Program-made: the position numbers and the translations under genes
Notes under the pieces: model-generated
Database searches by the model: none
The model's input: the letters and a program-made list of their open reading frames with translations, nothing else
Told to the model about the DNA's origin: nothing
Shown: piece by piece, positions 1,530-34,484 of the stretch
How the letters are laid out: every line of letters begins with the position of its first letter
How positions within the stretch are numbered: the first letter of the stretch is position 1
Assembly (NCBI GenBank): GCA_030427935.1
Contig: JAUICI010000013.1
Coordinates: forward strand, 1-38,194
DNA: 38,194 nucleotides
Direction of reading: 5' to 3'
From: Bacteroidia bacterium
GTDB lineage: Bacteria > Bacteroidota > Bacteroidia > Flavobacteriales_D > Crocinitomicaceae

Positions 1530-1570
1530 AAAAATGGAAGTGAGAGATTTACCAACCCACTCCCATTTTT
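1530..1570. terminator. Bidirectional intrinsic terminator between metF and the MuiA-family gene
   Basis: TGGAAGTG at 1535-1542 pairs with CACTCCCA at 1558-1565 with one mismatch. The stem is extended by an A-run (1527-1534) pairing with a T-run (1566-1570) around a 15-base loop. The A and T tracts make it usable on either strand, which fits the convergent genes. Confidence 0.7.
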
Positions 1571-1620
1571 CATCTTTAATTTCGGTCCCTGAGCGTAGTC
1601 GAAGGGTTCATTTTTAATCT
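1568..1620. repeat. Composite repeat: 7-bp units with an embedded GGTCCCTGAGC...GTCGAAGGG palindrome
   Basis: Heptamers TTTCATC and TTTAATT (1568-1581) are followed by a 23-bp imperfect palindrome at 1584-1606, beginning GGTCCCTGAGC and ending GTCGAAGGG. TTCATTT and TTAATCT (1607-1620) follow. The reverse complement closely matches the composite at 33619-33676: same palindrome family and same AATTAAA/AATGAAA units. It ends at the stop codon of the MuiA-family gene. Confidence 0.75.
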
Positions 1621-3301
1621 AAAGAACAATCTGCTTATCCTTATCGTACTTGACTGAGTATTCGTAATAAAGTTTTTTGGGTGTTTTCGCTCCTAAGTCG
1701 AAGACCCATTTAAGCATGCCTTTATCTTCATTGTACTCTGCTCCTCCTTTATCGATCAAATCCACTTTAATTTCTTCGTTTACAGATAATGGAATTTGAT
1801 CCAGAATATTCAGTTTTAAGCTTGTTACATTTAAGTTTTTGGCAATAATCTGATATTTCATGGTGGCAATTTTTTCACCTGCGACTTTCTTGATTTTCTC
1901 TTCGAAATCAATTCGCTTTCTTTGAACCAAGACTCTAGCGTCTCTACCTAAGGCCAACTCCATTGTGTCTCTGATTGAAGATGGGGAGATTCGAGTCTGA
2001 CCAACATAAGTACCATCGTAAAAGATATTGGCCACTGCTGGAAGTAAGTTCAGATCCTCCCAATCGGTCAATTTTGCAATCAAAAAGGCTTCTCTTTCCA
2101 CTTTTGGTGCGGCAAAATATTCGAAAGTTGAAGGAATCGACTTACTTGCGACAGCCATCAAATGTTCCTGTCCATCAGCTGGAATTGAATGCTTAATTTT
2201 CAGTTTAAACTCCACCATGGTCATATTGGATTGCATCTTGGTAAAATTATCCAAATGCTGCGCAACATCATCCTCATTCACTTCCTTAGATAAAGTCATT
2301 TTTTCTGCTGCTCTTGGGGCATTCACTACTCCGTTTCCGTAATAATTATTGTAAGCTCCTCCACCAACTGGCTGAATCGGCTGATAATAATTGATATACC
2401 ATGGTGCTAGTGTTGGTTTTACATTGGCTCGGTTTGGATTTATGGTTGATAAAGTCACATTTACTTCATCCCAATCCTTTCCTGTATTCTGAAAAACCTT
2501 TGCTTTGTAAGTGATTTTTACTGGTGCACTCACATTATCAGCTCTTAAATCATAGGAAGGTGACCATCCCGCTTGCTGCGTCATGTAGGAAACCGTCAAT
2601 GTACCTGAAGCCGCTTGATCGGCAGAAACCGTCACAACAATTTGCTGAACCGGACTCGCATTTGGAACTGGTTTGTGCGCACTATTTTGCCAGTTTCTTA
2701 GTTCATTCAATCTGGTGTTCATTTTATTCATGAGTTTATCCTCTTTCTCAATCTTTTGATCCAGTGCTAAAGTCAGCTTATTGATTTCGATCAGTTTTAT
2801 TCTATAATAATCCAAAGCATCCTTCAATAATGGAATCGAATCGTTTTGATCCTGTCCTTTAATCACACCACTATTTAGTAGAATTTGCTTTTCACTTTTA
2901 TAGACACTCAATTGGGATCTGAGTTTTTTCAATTTCCAAGACGAATCTGAAATAGAATCTTCAATGTTTTTGATTTCTCGAAGAATTTTCTCTGGAATCT
3001 CAGTTGTATTTACCGGTTTTTCCGGAACCGGATAATGCATACGATGACTCACATCTAGAATAATAAAATTTCCAGTCCCTTTGACTTGGATATTGTTTTT
3101 ATCAAAATACTGGCTTACATCATTTACGATGACCTTGGTGATTCCTTGCTCCACATAAACCTTTGCTTTTCTCTTTATTTGAGCCCCTTGTAAAAAGACT
3201 GTAACATCATTGATATTGGAACTCACTGTTTTCTCCTTTTCTGCTGCTAGGGCATTTCCAAAAAGTGTTAGTGTGAATATGCCTAAGATTAATTTTTTCA
3301 T
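1619..3301 (-). CDS. MuiA-family (DUF4140/DUF4139) exported protein
   Basis: 560 residues with a signal peptide (MKKLILGIFTLTLFGNALAA, cleavage after about residue 20). Residues about 28-130 fit DUF4140: a beta-rich segment starting INDVTVFLQGAQIKRKA. Residues about 105-205 are charged and helical, a likely coiled coil. Residues about 220-555 fit DUF4139, with LTVSYMTQQAGWSPSYDLRAD near 235 as its most typical stretch, ending in YEYSVKYDKDK. The family is named after a mucoidy inhibitor of gamma-proteobacteria, but its molecular role is not established, so export to the periplasm or outer surface is the only safe functional statement. ATG at 3301 is the only start that keeps the signal peptide. 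It is divergent from the SprB-repeat gene and convergent with metF. Confidence 0.85.
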   Translation of the reverse strand: MKKLILGIFTLTLFGNALAAEKEKTVSSNINDVTVFLQGAQIKRKAKVYVEQGITKVIVNDVSQYFDKNNIQVKGTGNFIILDVSHRMHYPVPEKPVNTTEIPEKILREIKNIEDSISDSSWKLKKLRSQLSVYKSEKQILLNSGVIKGQDQNDSIPLLKDALDYYRIKLIEINKLTLALDQKIEKEDKLMNKMNTRLNELRNWQNSAHKPVPNASPVQQIVVTVSADQAASGTLTVSYMTQQAGWSPSYDLRADNVSAPVKITYKAKVFQNTGKDWDEVNVTLSTINPNRANVKPTLAPWYINYYQPIQPVGGGAYNNYYGNGVVNAPRAAEKMTLSKEVNEDDVAQHLDNFTKMQSNMTMVEFKLKIKHSIPADGQEHLMAVASKSIPSTFEYFAAPKVEREAFLIAKLTDWEDLNLLPAVANIFYDGTYVGQTRISPSSIRDTMELALGRDARVLVQRKRIDFEEKIKKVAGEKIATMKYQIIAKNLNVTSLKLNILDQIPLSVNEEIKVDLIDKGGAEYNEDKGMLKWVFDLGAKTPKKLYYEYSVKYDKDKQIVL

Positions 3302-3538: not shown

Positions 3539-6500
3539 ATGAGAAAAGTTACAATGATGATGCTAGCGTTTATGACACTCGGAGCTACCGGTGTTTATGC
3601 GCAAACATCAAGTGGAACTGACAACTGCGAGTATGTCGACCACAAAAACAATGGTGGTACGGGGTATCATACGTTGGAAATAGGTCAGCAAGAAATGGCC
3701 GCTCAAACGTATCATTATTCCGGACCTGGAAGAATTGAACGAGTTTACATTAGCGGAGACAACCCAAGTGGCTTCACAAAAAGGCTGAGAGTTGGTGTGT
3801 ACAACGTTGATGGAAACGGAAGACCAACAACCTTAATTGATGAAGATTTCATTAATTGGCCAGGAAACTATTCTGGAGCAAGATATGCAGGGTTCAGTAA
3901 TTTAAATGTGAACCAAAATTTTGCTCTAGTTGTAGATCTTGAAGGAGTTTGGATTGGATGGCCTTTGTATACTGTAATTACAGAGCAAGGAACACAATTC
4001 AATCTTGAATATACGGGTGATGGTGAAGGACAAGGAGAAGATCTAGCTGCAAGAGCAGGAACTTCAACTGGTGGAAACTGGGTGTCTATCATCGGACAAG
4101 ATGGAGATTATTACATCTACCCAAGAATGAGACATTATAATACTGCAAATTTTACAGTAGATGACTATTGTATTGACGCAGGAGGTTCAGTAGATTTCAC
4201 TGATTTGTCTGAATTCACAAAAGATGAGATGTTTAATACCATTTCTCACCCAGACTATGCTGGATCAGATGTCCATTATGAGTGGGATTTTGATGATGGT
4301 TCGCCTGTTTCAAACCTTGCGAGTCCAACGCATACATTTACCAACCCAGGTGTTTATGAAGTTTCTTTGACTACGACTATCGGAAGATGGCCAATAGCAG
4401 GTACTTCTACAATTACAAACACAAAAACAATGCGAATTTCTGTCGGACTTTCAGTTTCTGGAAATGGAACAGATTTAACTTGTTTTGGTTCTGGTGATGG
4501 AGAAATCGACTTGACAGCTACAGGTGGAGACAACTCCAACTATACTTATATGATTACACATAATAGCTGGCAATCAGGAACAAACTTTAACGGACTTAAT
4601 GCAGGAACTTATGAAATTTATGTTCAAGATGCATTAGGATGTGAGGCTCAAGGAACAAATGTTGTTTTAGGAGAGCCTTCTCAAATCAATATTTCTTCAA
4701 TTGGAGTAACAGAAGCAACATGTGGAAACTCAGATGGTGCTCTATTAGTTGCTGCAACAGGAGGATCAGGAACATTGACTTATTCAAATGATGGTGGATC
4801 TAACTTCCAAGCAAGTGGATCATTCACGGCTTTGAACTCTGGTGCATACGAAATCGTTGTTGAAGACGCGAATGGATGTCAAACTAGCGAATGGGTAAAT
4901 GTTGACAATAATGCAGGACCTACTTTGACTGTTCAATCGCACACAAATATTTCTTGTTTTGGTGGAAACGATGGAACAATTACAATGATTGGATCAGGTG
5001 GAACTGGTGCTTTAGAGTATTCAGTTGACGGAACTAACTGGCAAGCTTCAGGAACTTTCACAGGTCTTACTGCTGGACAATATATCCCTCAAGTAAGAGA
5101 TGCTGCTGGATGTTTAACTTCCATGTGTGATGCAACTATTCAAATGTGTGGTATTGAGTTGACTCAACCAACTGCAATTACATTCTCTTTAGAAACAACA
5201 GATGCACTTTGTAATGGATCTTCAGACGGAGAAATCCTTGTTACAAATGGAATCGGAGGAATCGGAACTTTCACTTATTCTTCTGATGGAACAAACTTCC
5301 AGTCAAGCCCTTCTTTCTCAGGATTTGCAGCTGGAACTCACATGATTACAGTTAAAGATGCTGCTGGATGTACAGCTACTGGAAACGCGGTTATTAACGA
5401 ACCAACTGCAGTTACTGCAAACGTTACATCAACTACAGATTTAACTTGTAATGGTTCAGGAGATGGAGAACTTTCAATCGATGCTGCTGGTGGTGTTGGA
5501 GAGTATTCATTTAGCTTGAATGGAACAGATTTTTACCCAGAAGGTGAGTTTGGTGGATTAGACGCTGGAACTTACAATATCGTGGTAGAAGATGCAAATG
5601 GATGTGAAGCGATGACTGTGGCAACATTGAATGAGCCAACAGAAATTACTTTATCTACTTTTAATACAACTGCTGCAACTTGTGGATCAGCAAACGGAGG
5701 AATCCTTGCGCAAGCTACAGGTGGTGCTGGAACATTCTCATATAGTATTGATGGACTTGGAGGTTCAACTACAAACGGATCAGGATCATTCGGGTCTTTA
5801 GCTTCAGGAGAATATGAAGTGATTGTAGAAGACATGAATGGATGTGTTGCTTCATTCTCTACAGTTGTTATTGCAACTGGTGGTGCAGCAATTACTGGAA
5901 CTACTCAGACAAATGTTACTTGTCCAGGTGGAGACAATGGAACCGTTTCTGTTACAGCAACTTCGCCAAACGGTGGATTGGAATATGCTGCTGGTGGATC
6001 AGGTTACCAAGCTTCAAGTACAGTTGGTGGATTGTCAGCTGGAGATAATATCGTAACAGTAAGAGACGCACTTGGATGTATTGACTCTACTATCGTTACA
6101 ATTACAGAACCTTCTCCGTTTACAATTAACTTAACTCCAACTGATGTATCATGTTATGATGGAGATGATGGAGAAATTAGTGTAAGTGCTGCAGGTGGTT
6201 CAGGAACTCTAGCTTATAGCATTGACGGAATGAACTTCCAATCTTCTACTGATTTCACCGGACTTATGGCAGGTGACTATACAGTAACTGTTAAAGATGC
6301 AGGACAATGTGAAGGTGAAGCAATGGTTACGATTGATGAGCCTACTGAGATTCATATTACATCTTCTTATTTGAATGTTGATTGTTATGGAGATCAAACG
6401 GGATCCATCACTGCAACTGCAGTTGGTGGAACTGGAGCCATGACTTACAGCATCGATGGAACTGGATTCCAAGCAAGTGGAACTTTCACAAACCTTAGTG

Positions 6501-7300
6501 CAGGTAACTATATCGTGATTGCAAAAGATGCTAACAACTGTACCGTAACACAAATGGTTGTTGTTTCTGAACCAGATCAACTTGTGCTTACTGCAAATGT
6601 TTCTGATGTTTCTTGTGCTGGTGGTCACGACGGAGTTGTAGATCTTACCGTAACTGGAGGAACAACACCAATGGCTTTTGTTTGGTCAAACGGTGTAACT
6701 ACTGAAGACATCTTCAACTTAGGTCCAGATAACTACAGTGTTATTGTTACCGATGCCAACGGATGTACTGAAACTGGAAACTGGGATATTACAGAACCAT
6801 CAAATGCGATTACAATCAATGGAACTGTAACGGATGCAACTGGTGCTACAAATAATGATGGAGCAGTTGATATCACAGTAACAGGTGGAACACCTTCATA
6901 TTCTTATTCTTGGAATAATGGAGACATGACTGAAGATATCTTCGCTCTTCTTCCTGGAGTTTATGTGGTAACGGTAACAGATGCTAACGGATGTTCGATG
7001 CAAGGTTCATTCACAGTGAACTTTACACTTGGATTAGAGGATGAGTCAAACGAAATTTCACTAGACCTTTATCCAAATCCAACAAGAGATATCTTAAACA
7101 TCAAGTTTGGTTCAAACCAAAACGTAGAGAATTTATCTCTTATCGATATCACAGGAAAAGTGGTTTATGAAAATATACCTTCAAATAATAATGACAGCGA
7201 GTATGAGTTAAACCTTAACTTCTTGCCAGAAGGGGTGTACTTCTTAAATGTCTATACAAACGATCAAGTTCTAACGAGAAAAGTTGTTATAAGCAAGTAG
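3539..7300 (+). CDS. SprB-repeat adhesin with PKD domain and T9SS type A sorting domain
   Basis: 1253 residues. Layout: signal peptide (1-21, ending GVYA); an N-terminal beta-rich region without a recognised family (about 25-205); a PKD domain (about 210-300, with the diagnostic YEWDFDDGSP and HTFTNPGVYEVSLTT); eleven SprB-type repeats of about 75-85 residues (about 303-1165); and a C-terminal T9SS type A sorting domain (about 1170-1253, with LDLYPNPTRD and GVYFLNV). Each repeat carries a cysteine-containing CxGxxDGxI motif, a GGxGxxxYSxDG core and a DAxGC motif; the last two repeats are SNG/NNG variants and the eleventh lacks the first cysteine. SprB repeats occur in the mobile surface adhesin of gliding Flavobacteriia, so the product is probably secreted by T9SS and anchored outside the cell. 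It is monocistronic, with its own promoter and terminator. Confidence 0.93.
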   Translation: MRKVTMMMLAFMTLGATGVYAQTSSGTDNCEYVDHKNNGGTGYHTLEIGQQEMAAQTYHYSGPGRIERVYISGDNPSGFTKRLRVGVYNVDGNGRPTTLIDEDFINWPGNYSGARYAGFSNLNVNQNFALVVDLEGVWIGWPLYTVITEQGTQFNLEYTGDGEGQGEDLAARAGTSTGGNWVSIIGQDGDYYIYPRMRHYNTANFTVDDYCIDAGGSVDFTDLSEFTKDEMFNTISHPDYAGSDVHYEWDFDDGSPVSNLASPTHTFTNPGVYEVSLTTTIGRWPIAGTSTITNTKTMRISVGLSVSGNGTDLTCFGSGDGEIDLTATGGDNSNYTYMITHNSWQSGTNFNGLNAGTYEIYVQDALGCEAQGTNVVLGEPSQINISSIGVTEATCGNSDGALLVAATGGSGTLTYSNDGGSNFQASGSFTALNSGAYEIVVEDANGCQTSEWVNVDNNAGPTLTVQSHTNISCFGGNDGTITMIGSGGTGALEYSVDGTNWQASGTFTGLTAGQYIPQVRDAAGCLTSMCDATIQMCGIELTQPTAITFSLETTDALCNGSSDGEILVTNGIGGIGTFTYSSDGTNFQSSPSFSGFAAGTHMITVKDAAGCTATGNAVINEPTAVTANVTSTTDLTCNGSGDGELSIDAAGGVGEYSFSLNGTDFYPEGEFGGLDAGTYNIVVEDANGCEAMTVATLNEPTEITLSTFNTTAATCGSANGGILAQATGGAGTFSYSIDGLGGSTTNGSGSFGSLASGEYEVIVEDMNGCVASFSTVVIATGGAAITGTTQTNVTCPGGDNGTVSVTATSPNGGLEYAAGGSGYQASSTVGGLSAGDNIVTVRDALGCIDSTIVTITEPSPFTINLTPTDVSCYDGDDGEISVSAAGGSGTLAYSIDGMNFQSSTDFTGLMAGDYTVTVKDAGQCEGEAMVTIDEPTEIHITSSYLNVDCYGDQTGSITATAVGGTGAMTYSIDGTGFQASGTFTNLSAGNYIVIAKDANNCTVTQMVVVSEPDQLVLTANVSDVSCAGGHDGVVDLTVTGGTTPMAFVWSNGVTTEDIFNLGPDNYSVIVTDANGCTETGNWDITEPSNAITINGTVTDATGATNNDGAVDITVTGGTPSYSYSWNNGDMTEDIFALLPGVYVVTVTDANGCSMQGSFTVNFTLGLEDESNEISLDLYPNPTRDILNIKFGSNQNVENLSLIDITGKVVYENIPSNNNDSEYELNLNFLPEGVYFLNVYTNDQVLTRKVVISK

Positions 7301-28174: not shown

Positions 28175-28209
28175 TGGAAATTGTTCAATGATAATTGATA
28201 ATTGATAAT
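28175..28209. repeat. 7-bp tandem array, three perfect TGATAAT units plus two degenerate ones
   Basis: TGATAAT is repeated three times without change (28189-28209). Two upstream heptamers (TGGAAAT, TGTTCAA) keep the phase and the TG start. The array ends 7 bases before the ATG of the TerB/LETM1 gene. The rest of the 239-base spacer (27978-28174) shows no repeat or RNA gene. Confidence 0.75.
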
Positions 28210-28216
28210 TTTAAGC

Positions 28217-29476
28217 ATGTCATTTACACCGGAAGGAAAAGGATGGATTCAGAAATACCATGAATTGGCCTCAAATGGGACCATTCAGATGGAGGTTGAT
28301 CAGTATCAGTTTGATCCTGAAAAAAATCTGTATTTGAATATTCAAGATACCGGTTTGATTTATGGCTACCCGACCAATTTCATTTTCTATCCGGATGAAA
28401 TCAGTAAATGGGCAACAGCAGATTCTTATAAGCTTTTGTTATATGAAGGATTCATTCTATCCAATATCCTGAATAGCCAAAGTCATGTTATTGACCCCAA
28501 AGAATTGATTGAATTTTACGAAATGTTGAATCACAAAAAGATCAGCAAGTTCAATTTATTCGGGAAAGATGATGATTATGAAAAAGTGGATTTCCTTCTC
28601 AGCAAAAGATTGAATATTAAAATTCAGGGTGATAGTTTCTGGTTAAATTATTTGTCCAACAGTTTCATTTACACCGACCTCATTCTTTATCACAAGATCA
28701 AAATGGGCCATCAATTCCCCGAACTTGAGAAAAGAATTCAATTCATCCAAAAGGCCGCCTTGCATATTATCATCGCTGCGACAACATCAAACGGTATCAT
28801 TGGAGAAAAAGAAAAAGCGGTTTTTGATCTTTTCCTAGCCTCTTCAAGTCTACCTGATAGCGACAAAAACGAGATCGAATCAATGCTCAGCAAAGGGATC
28901 GATGTGAATGAACTTGTTTTGCCAGATGAATTGACCTGGATCGTTCGAAGATGGTTTTTGGAAATTGCTTTGATCGTTATTTTGGCTGATAATATCATCG
29001 ATCCGAAAGAACAAGCATTTGTGGAAAAGCTCTCAGAAAGATTGAGTTTCAATAAATACGAGTTGGAAGATGCACAAAATTCGATTCAAAGTTTCATTCT
29101 GAACAATTTTGAGAAGCTTCCTTATCTGACAGACAAGTCTGAATTTCAGCAAATCTATGGCAATGTTTCCAATAAGGTGGTTAAAGCCGTAAGCAATAAC
29201 AAAGAGAAACTGATCAAAGAATTACATGAAAGTAAGGAATTGGTTGCCCTAATTACAAAATCCACCACACGGGAACTTACAAGAGATGAAAAGAAGAAAG
29301 TAAGAAAACAATTAGGTGATTTAGCCAAATCCATCCCAGCATTAGCAGTTTTCATGCTTCCAGGAGGCGCAATTTTACTTCCTTTGGTCTTGAAAGTATT
29401 ACCAAATCTACTTCCAAGTGCTTTTCAATCGAATAAGTTGGATGAAGGAAATGAAGAATTAAAAATGAAAAATTAA
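28217..29476 (+). CDS. TerB-like/LETM1-like cytoplasmic protein
   Basis: 419 residues from ATG 28217 (a TTG five codons upstream is inside the repeat array). The first 180 residues have no recognised family. Residues about 185-300 resemble a TerB-type helical domain: AALHIIIAATTSNGIIGEKEKAV, read as AALHIIIAATTSNG then IIGEKEKAV, and a second acidic helix pair LADNIIDPKEQAFVEKL, a spacing like the two TerB metal-site helices. Residues about 350-410 resemble the LETM1 ribosome-binding-like segment: STTRELTRDEKKKVRKQL followed by LPGGAILLPLVLKVLPNLLP. LETM1 proteins of mitochondria handle cation exchange; bacterial LETM1-like proteins are uncharacterised. The last codons lie within the 7-bp repeat at 29450-29484. 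Confidence 0.7.
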   Translation: MSFTPEGKGWIQKYHELASNGTIQMEVDQYQFDPEKNLYLNIQDTGLIYGYPTNFIFYPDEISKWATADSYKLLLYEGFILSNILNSQSHVIDPKELIEFYEMLNHKKISKFNLFGKDDDYEKVDFLLSKRLNIKIQGDSFWLNYLSNSFIYTDLILYHKIKMGHQFPELEKRIQFIQKAALHIIIAATTSNGIIGEKEKAVFDLFLASSSLPDSDKNEIESMLSKGIDVNELVLPDELTWIVRRWFLEIALIVILADNIIDPKEQAFVEKLSERLSFNKYELEDAQNSIQSFILNNFEKLPYLTDKSEFQQIYGNVSNKVVKAVSNNKEKLIKELHESKELVALITKSTTRELTRDEKKKVRKQLGDLAKSIPALAVFMLPGGAILLPLVLKVLPNLLPSAFQSNKLDEGNEELKMKN

Positions 29477-29484
29477 AAATTGGG
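29450..29484. repeat. 7-bp degenerate array (AATTAAA/AATGAAA units) overlapping a gene 3' end
   Basis: Five heptamers in phase: AATGAAG (29450), AATTAAA (29457), AATGAAA (29464), AATTAAA (29471) and AATTGGG (29478). The TAA stop of the TerB/LETM1 gene lies within the fourth unit. The same unit alternation is present on the minus strand around 1568-1620. Confidence 0.75.
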
Positions 29485-29523
29485 ATTGAGTTATGACAAA
29501 AATTGAGTCGAGCCTTTAAATTT

Positions 29524-33084: not shown

Positions 33085-33612
33085 TTATACAGCGACTAAC
33101 TTTTTATGGGGTTTCTGTGGAAATTCTAACTTGATGGGATCATTGGGTCGAACGACTCCATCAGCTAGGGCAATTGCCATGACTCCTGTTAGGTAGGGCA
33201 CTTCTCCATCCACAACCATTTCATTGAGTAAACCCTCTTGAACATGATTCAACTGTGAACAGGGTTTTCTCAGTCCTTTTATTTGAATTTTTGCCTCTTC
33301 CCCTAAATGCAAAATGGTATTTTCTGGAAGATTCAATAAATCAATCCCTTCCGTTGTGATATTCTCGCCCATTTCTCCAGGCTGAATCTCAAAACCTTTG
33401 GCTGACATCTCCTCAAACAATTCCTTATGAATCAAATGCACCTGCCTTAAATTGGGTGCCGTTGGATTTTTCTTTTTGTCCCAAATATGCTGAACGGTTT
33501 TACCGGCATGCCGGTCCCCTTCTACTCCATGACCTGCAATGATGTTTATTGAATCAACAGCTTTTTTGTTGATATGAATCTTTATGGAAATATTTACTGA
33601 GATGACTTTCAT
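33085..33612 (-). CDS. MOSC-domain protein
   Basis: 175 residues, a single MOSC domain without the N-terminal MOSC_N or ferredoxin parts of the larger mARC/YcbX proteins. Family blocks: HGVEGDRHAGKTVQH near residue 29, PGEMGENITTEGIDLLNL near 78, and the conserved cysteine in GLRKPCSQLN near 117, the residue expected to coordinate a molybdenum cofactor sulfur or to carry persulfide. The substrate is unknown for most small MOSC proteins. It is the first gene of a three-gene minus-strand group. The spacer upstream holds a composite repeat and a terminator. Confidence 0.88.
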   Translation of the reverse strand: MKVISVNISIKIHINKKAVDSINIIAGHGVEGDRHAGKTVQHIWDKKKNPTAPNLRQVHLIHKELFEEMSAKGFEIQPGEMGENITTEGIDLLNLPENTILHLGEEAKIQIKGLRKPCSQLNHVQEGLLNEMVVDGEVPYLTGVMAIALADGVVRPNDPIKLEFPQKPHKKLVAV

Positions 33613-33618
33613 TGTATG

Positions 33619-33676
33619 AATGTAAAATTAAAAATTAATCCTTCGACAAGCTCAGGAACCTAAATTAAAAAATAAA
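33619..33676. repeat. Composite repeat: AATTAAA-type heptamers with an embedded CCTTCGACAAGCTCAGG palindrome
   Basis: AATGTAA, AATTAAA and AATTAAT (33619-33639) are followed by the imperfect palindrome CCTTCGACAAGCTCAGG (33640-33656) plus AACCTA, then AATTAAA and AAATAAA (33663-33676). The reverse complement of the palindrome with its flanking GGTT matches the element at 1584-1606 except at its centre. Confidence 0.75.
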
Positions 33677-33806: not shown

Positions 33807-34484
33807 TTAGTTGATCAAGTTAAAAAATTGGTCTCTGTATGTGTCTGAAATAGGCAGCATTTCCTTGTTGATGTGAATGCGACTTCTCTCGATGGAATCG
33901 ATTTTATCGATGGCGACCATATAGGATTTGTGGACTCTTGGGATTTTGTTTTTGGGTAAAATTTGTTCCAATTCTCCGAAGGTTTGCAAGGTCATGATGC
34001 GTCGATCTTTACAGTGAAACCTCCGGTAATCGCCCATTCCCTCGATATATAAGATCTCATCAAAAAAGATCTTTTCCAATCGGTTTTCGGTTTTGATAAA
34101 AATGAACTCCTGATCCTGAGTAGTAGACTTCATATTCTCTCGAACTTTCTCAATGGCTTTCAGGAATCGATCTAAATCAAAGGGTTTGAGTAAATAGTCT
34201 GTCACATTTAGATCATAACCTTTTAAAGCGTATTCATCATAAGCAGTGGTGATGATGACCTGAGCCTCCACTTTGGTCGTTTCGAGAAATTGAATCCCCG
34301 ATAATTCATCCATTTTGATGTCTAGGAAAATCAAATCGACTTCATGATCTCGAATATAATCCATGGCGTCCAGGGCATTGTCGAAAGATTCCAACAGATT
34401 CAGATCACTCACTTTCTCGATGAACAACTGCGTTCGCTCCATCGCCAAAGGCTCGTCTTCTACTATGATGCACTTCATCGTCAT
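33807..34484 (-). CDS. LytTR-type response regulator
   Basis: 225 residues. The receiver (about 3-120) has the acidic pair E9/D10, phosphoacceptor D55 in LIFLDIKMDELSG, T80 and K100 in YLLKPFDLDRFL. The LytTR DNA-binding domain (about 128-225) contains FIFIKTENRLEKIFFDEILYIE, split as FIFIKTENRLEKI then FFDEILYIE, plus a VHKSYMVAIDKI block, typical of the family that binds direct repeats. Its start overlaps the stop of the upstream histidine kinase by one base (TAATG), so the two are translationally coupled. MTM at 34484 is used; the second methionine (34478) is an alternative. Confidence 0.93.
   Translation of the reverse strand: MTMKCIIVEDEPLAMERTQLFIEKVSDLNLLESFDNALDAMDYIRDHEVDLIFLDIKMDELSGIQFLETTKVEAQVIITTAYDEYALKGYDLNVTDYLLKPFDLDRFLKAIEKVRENMKSTTQDQEFIFIKTENRLEKIFFDEILYIEGMGDYRRFHCKDRRIMTLQTFGELEQILPKNKIPRVHKSYMVAIDKIDSIERSRIHINKEMLPISDTYRDQFFNLIN

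Follow-up and report, generated by a model that had tools for sequence, protein, structure and literature searches.

A short palindrome with the core CTGAGC-N2/3-GTCGAAG occurs at two distant places of the window, that is, the whole stretch of 38,194 nucleotides of a Bacteroidia bacterium contig that was analysed, and both copies lie inside arrays of 7-nt direct repeats. The palindrome is probably a small non-autonomous REP-like element that inserts cleanly and that favours, in this lineage, pre-existing heptamer arrays at a fixed phase. According to this interpretation, a unit made up of 6 nt, the core, and 2 nt would insert without target duplication and without net loss, and the heptamers would serve as the landing place of the palindrome, not as a component of the element. 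An enzyme acting in trans would move the unit, probably as a single-stranded hairpin. Comparison of the copies gives good support to the view that the unit entered arrays already present; the enzyme and the hairpin mechanism we infer, as an HUH-type mechanism would be compatible with the missing target duplication and with arms that pair.

The core is located at positions 1589–1604 on the plus strand and 33641–33655 on the minus strand of the window, within the palindromes GGTCCCTGAGCGTAGTCGAAGGG (1584–1606, plus) and GGTTCCTGAGCTTGTCGAAGGA (33639–33660, minus). The copies have common arms with one base different in each outer arm, and their centres are GTA in copy 1 and TT in copy 2, which makes copy 2 shorter by one base. 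The preliminary description had reported one palindrome at two distant loci, with common arms, different centres, and 7-bp units around both, and the sequences bear this out. The putative inserted units, both with the exact core, are CGGTCC-CTGAGC-GTA-GTCGAAG-GG in copy 1 (24 nt; 1583–1606, plus) and AGGTTC-CTGAGC-TT-GTCGAAG-GA in copy 2 (23 nt; 33639–33661, minus), and their removal restores the heptamer register at 6 of 7 and 7 of 7 positions, respectively. In context, copy 1 reads TTCATCTTTAATTT-unit-TTCATTTTTAATCT and copy 2 reads TTATTTTTTAATTT-unit-TTAATTTTTAATTT, with heptamer-like flanks (TTCATTT/TTAATTT) in identical phase on both sides of both copies. The left array of copy 1 (CATTTTT CATCTTT AATTT; 1563–1582, plus) matches TT[CA]AT[TC][TC] at 14 of 14 positions in phase 0, as does the right array (TTCATTT TTAATCT; 1607–1620, plus), which extends to the stop codon of a convergent gene. 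The flanks of copy 2 on the minus strand are also in phase 0: 13 of 14 positions match on the 5′ side (33662–33676) and 14 of 14 on the 3′ side (33624–33638), where Tandem Repeats Finder gives a period of 7.

Site 1 is situated between the convergent ends of the upstream methylenetetrahydrofolate reductase gene (MTHFR; 519–1466, plus; PF02219, TIGR00676) and the MuiA-family gene (DUF4139/DUF4140; 1619–3301, minus; TIGR02231, PF13598). Site 2 lies between the upstream LytTR response regulator gene (33807–34484; PF00072 and PF04397) and the downstream MOSC-domain gene (33085–33612; PF03473), both on the minus strand. An Rfam search of the window returned no match. At 3539–7300, the window also encodes a large protein with SprB repeats and a tail for Por secretion, similar to those of gliding Bacteroidota.

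In the source genome, an incomplete assembly of 3.9 Mb in 289 contigs (96% complete), the exact core was found 27 times and the reversed-pattern control once. Relaxed patterns gave only a few extra matches, indicating that the copies are well conserved. The unit measures 23 or 24 nt in this genome; in relatives whose loops are 4 nt long, it can reach 26 nt. By their ends, the copies of this genome fall mainly into three classes, namely class A (CGGTCC..GG), class B (CCYGCA..TG), and class C (CTTGTG..TA); both window copies belong to class A, the ends of copy 2 being AGGTTC..GA. The two positions beside the core, −1/+1 and −2/+2, are paired in 27 of 27 copies, compared with 51% and 81% when the partners were shuffled. 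As the first outer pair may be C-G, A-T, G-T, or G-C and the second C-G, T-A, or T-G, this exchange of bases on both sides supports a hairpin that matters. The fold energies of the palindromes, as RNA or DNA, gave z-scores near zero relative to shuffles, which weighs against the proposed element, although the models may underrate G.A mismatches in the stem. Within the set of papers searched, the core sequence had no match.

The arrangement of some copies defines the ends of the unit. At locus L076, two units abut exactly head to tail (GTCGAAG-GG followed by CGGTCC-CTGAGC) and the first of them carries a class C unit in its own loop, and at three more loci (L071, L082, and L067) an outer copy holds a second unit in its loop. 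These nested and abutting copies place the ends 6 nt ahead of the core and 2 nt behind it and exclude a 7-bp duplication at those copies. Other copies stand without heptamers (L075, L085, L007, and L073); at the last locus, two cores lie within a 69-bp tandem repeat (around 1630–1740; contig C69).

Sixteen of the 27 copies are inside heptamer arrays, compared with 6.2% of 17,495 random intergenic points taken from the same DNA with simple ORFs as gene calls (binomial p ~3e-13, this and the other statistics having been designed after the pattern had been seen), so that the recurrence claimed in the preliminary description goes beyond chance. When the unit was removed, the mean number of period-7 matches across the junction was 4.48 of 7, compared with 1.6–2.9 for other lengths, and the match peaked only at a removal of 23/24 nt. 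The phase is locked in 14 of 17 right flanks and 11 of 13 left flanks, with the preferred insertion position TTCATTT^TTCATTT. In L084, the one clear exception, unit and heptamers run in opposite directions and the phase differs, yet the register is still kept. The own flanks of the copies matched at 4.92 positions compared with 3.75 when right flanks were swapped among copies (p=0.0003); the corresponding values for the sister species were 4.11 and 2.46 (p=0.0003). This better agreement indicates that each copy resides in its own local array and, as far as flank comparison can tell, that the palindrome entered an array already present.

Most heptamer arrays carry no palindrome, and they are of many sequences (AGGTAAT, TTAGATT, TTCTAAG, CGAATTA, and CCTAATT). 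Three such intergenic arrays of period 7 are present on the plus strand of the window, namely one of the NNNTAGA type just after the MTHFR stop codon (1470–1527), TGATAAT upstream of a start codon (28179–28216), and AAATGAA/AAATTAA (29449–29485). The sister species has partly kept their positions but not their 7-mers: a similar array type is found at the place of the first, and the heptamers at the position of the second are altered.

The core is present in 122 of the 197 genomes of the class, with up to 215 copies, and its distribution within genera is very uneven; species of genus g37, for instance, can have 67 cores or 1, and those of g61 can have 42 or 0. In the sister species (G001), the arrangement at locus L092 is (TTCTAAG)n, CGCTGCC-CTGAGCGGTAGTCGAAG-GG, TTCTAAG, and L091 and L094 are alike. 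The palindrome lies within AACTCNN heptamers in another genus (G012), within TGACAAG heptamers in another family (G208), and within AATCTGT heptamers in one copy of G002. Removal of the unit restored the register in single copies of all four genomes, with heptamers other than those of the source genome; the swapped-flank test was not significant for G012 (3 copies) and G208 (6 copies). The core stands outside heptamers in G009, G010, and G064, which indicates that the preference for arrays is lineage-specific. Site 1 is syntenic in the sister species, where arrays of other heptamers occupy the same places and the palindrome is absent; this is a comparison at the genus level, between species and not strains, of intergenic DNA too diverged for base-by-base alignment. 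The orthologous comparison refers to site 1, the sister contig ending inside the MOSC gene at site 2.

G064, the richest genome with its 215 cores, is a complete assembly of one contig. Many of these cores (L204–L233) are arranged, next to CGTCATTGCGAG..AAGCAATCT repeats, as inverted pairs that carry TGTCAT ends and have a spacing of 43–48 nt. Core dimers are also found in G010. In contig C3 of G002 (L101, around 1400–2780), a long ORF composed of repeated segments contains cores and near-cores many times over, which gives the impression that the palindrome became incorporated into a coding repeat.

When 84,980 species genomes were scanned for the core together with the GGTTCATTTTT flank, two records matched: Microcystis aeruginosa LEGE 91341 and a MAG of an uncultured member of the Bacteroidia. 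Their flank match follows from the way the query was built. In Microcystis, the copy lies within a 23S_rRNA_IVP (four helix bundle) gene (L172, 4610–5047), which it splits. Its unit of 24 nt, CTTGCC-CTGAGCTACGTCGAAG-GG, has the same anatomy and introduces a stop codon. When the flanks were joined minus the 24 nt, the encoded protein aligned without gaps across the junction to the homologues of Nostoc, Tolypothrix, and Oscillatoria, which indicates a net insertion of 24 nt without duplication. Viral contigs gave more than 120 matches to a 15-base pattern; about that many were estimated by chance for a collection of this size, and they were not used.

The preliminary description had suggested a link to a RAYT. 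Four Y1 transposase genes, two for RAYTs (NF047646) and two IS200-like, are present in the source genome, and each of them lies near its own different palindrome (L008–L011; contigs C30, C249, C114, and C55): ACTGACGGTTTAAACCGTCAGT; GGACCCnnnGGGTCC, four times downstream; GTCACGCTCG..CGAGCGTGAC; and CGCGAATCCTTCGCG. It is therefore likely that several independent REP systems coexist in one genome. Y1 genes were sought with PF01797 in 46 genome searches, and the exact core was absent within ~1.5 kb of the Y1 genes at all 62 loci of the source and other genomes; one weak match with a single mismatch was seen at L166. No Y1 gene was detected in several genomes rich in cores, and G064 gave no PF01797 match. 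With no exact core beside the 62 loci, a RAYT was rejected as the cognate enzyme and the suggested link was abandoned. Tentatively, and with more doubt than confidence, we extend the proposal to heptamer arrays of any sequence, which in several Bacteroidia families might be landing pads for an enzyme distinct from RAYT that inserts a hairpin of 23–26 nt cleanly at one repeat phase, reading either the periodicity of the array or the position of a recurring motif.

The strongest rival of the proposed element is spread driven by homology, which we nevertheless regard as unlikely. As the arrays are dispersed homologous DNA, one bearing a palindrome could donate it to others by gene conversion or template switching; register, phase, and orientation would then be kept automatically and no transposase would be needed. 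The phase lock, the near-constant orientation with its one clear exception, the many dispersed arrays alike in sequence, and the failure to find a cognate transposase among the Y1 loci are all in agreement with such donation. However, one phase is common to several unit classes whose 6-nt ends differ, L084 is reversed and in another phase, and there are nested copies as well as copies outside arrays. The copy-specific flanks, the different heptamers of the sister species, and the clean insertion within the Microcystis gene also speak against donation.

The preliminary description had proposed that the palindrome and its flanking heptamers travel as one unit. The palindrome does form a dispersed family, regularly in heptamer surroundings, and its mobility is now better supported, but joint travel is very improbable and already largely refuted. 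Most copies of the source genome do have TTAATTT...TTCATTT flanks in the same phase, as joint movement would predict. Against it stand the many arrays without a palindrome, the sister species with its palindrome in a different heptamer (TTCTAAG), the flanks that are specific to each copy in the swap test, and the nested or abutting copies with no heptamers between them. At the orthologous site 1 of the sister species, the heptamers are present and the palindrome is not, and copies lacking heptamer flanks, named in that description as the observation to look for against joint travel, exist at L075, L085, L007, and in the tandem repeat of L073.

It is equally improbable that the palindrome is mainly a selected transcript-end or RNA element, a weak terminator with a T-rich heptamer tract, whose recurrence reflects function and not mobility. 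Each window copy stands on the 3′ side of a gene of matching orientation and is followed by TTCATTTTT or TTAATTTTT, and several relatives have the core at the tip of longer, perfect hairpins with A/T tracts (L111). However, the fold energies give the palindromes no advantage over shuffles in models that may underrate G.A mismatches, the orientation of the copies to the upstream gene is mixed across the source genome, and a terminator leaves the exact 23/24-nt unit and the split Microcystis gene unexplained. Least probable of all is that insertion itself made the heptamers by a 7-bp target duplication or slippage beside the hairpin, later amplified into arrays: the identical 7-mers on both sides of some sister-species copies (TTCCAAG, TTCTAAG) are compatible with it, and the restored register alone fits such a duplication as well as clean insertion into an array, but the nested, non-array, and Microcystis copies show no 7-bp target duplication, and most arrays have no palindrome, and arrays stand at orthologous positions without it.

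Compared with known systems, the proposed element most resembles REPs. The CGTC-tagged REPs (Di Nocera et al. 2013, PMC3733652) are likewise short intergenic palindromes with no known transposase, in agreement with the Y1 survey above, and they were reported inside target palindromes, not heptamer arrays. In G064, the core carries the TGTC tag (a listed CGTC variant), has a stem with AT at its base, and forms inverted dimers; its inverted pairs with TGTCAT ends fit the CGTC superfamily (PMC3733652). The units of the source genome differ: they are mostly single, with few nested or abutting and not in head-to-head dimers, and they lie in register within arrays. Their ends (CGGTCC/AGGTTC, with GGTC, and the unrelated CCYGCA and CTTGTG) lack the unpaired CGTC (or TGTC/CCTC) motif, and they do not have the stem of 8–9 bp with A and T at the first and second positions. 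The GTAG REP/RAYT systems (REPtrons, REPINs; PMC6006769) are also imperfect palindromes in dispersed positions, for which mobilisation in trans is assumed; a Y1/HUH enzyme would be expected to leave no target duplication. In contrast to them, the foot of the hairpin shows no GT[AG]G tetranucleotide in any unit class, and none of the four Y1 genes of the source genome has this palindrome beside it, as a cognate RAYT gene would.

Direct repeats of 7 nt occur here around and away from the palindromes, mainly in intergenic DNA. Arrays of the heptanucleotide TAACTGA, also intergenic and including mixed heptamers, were described in Bacteroidetes and Cyanobacteria (MacGregor 2015, PMC4679880); the portion of that paper considered here describes no palindrome inside the arrays and does not contain the word palindrome. 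MITEs are similarly small, non-autonomous, and dispersed, but here the nested, non-array, and Microcystis copies have no target duplication, there are no terminal inverted repeats besides the hairpin, and no parent element was found. The palindrome is thus best filed as a REP-like variant.

Heptamer arrays are often regarded as products of slippage. The results presented here indicate that they can also serve as insertion sites, and they bear on how REPs without a RAYT move. As the exact unit, the lack of target duplication, the target context, and the split cyanobacterial gene can all be read from sequence, the insertion may be traced strain by strain.
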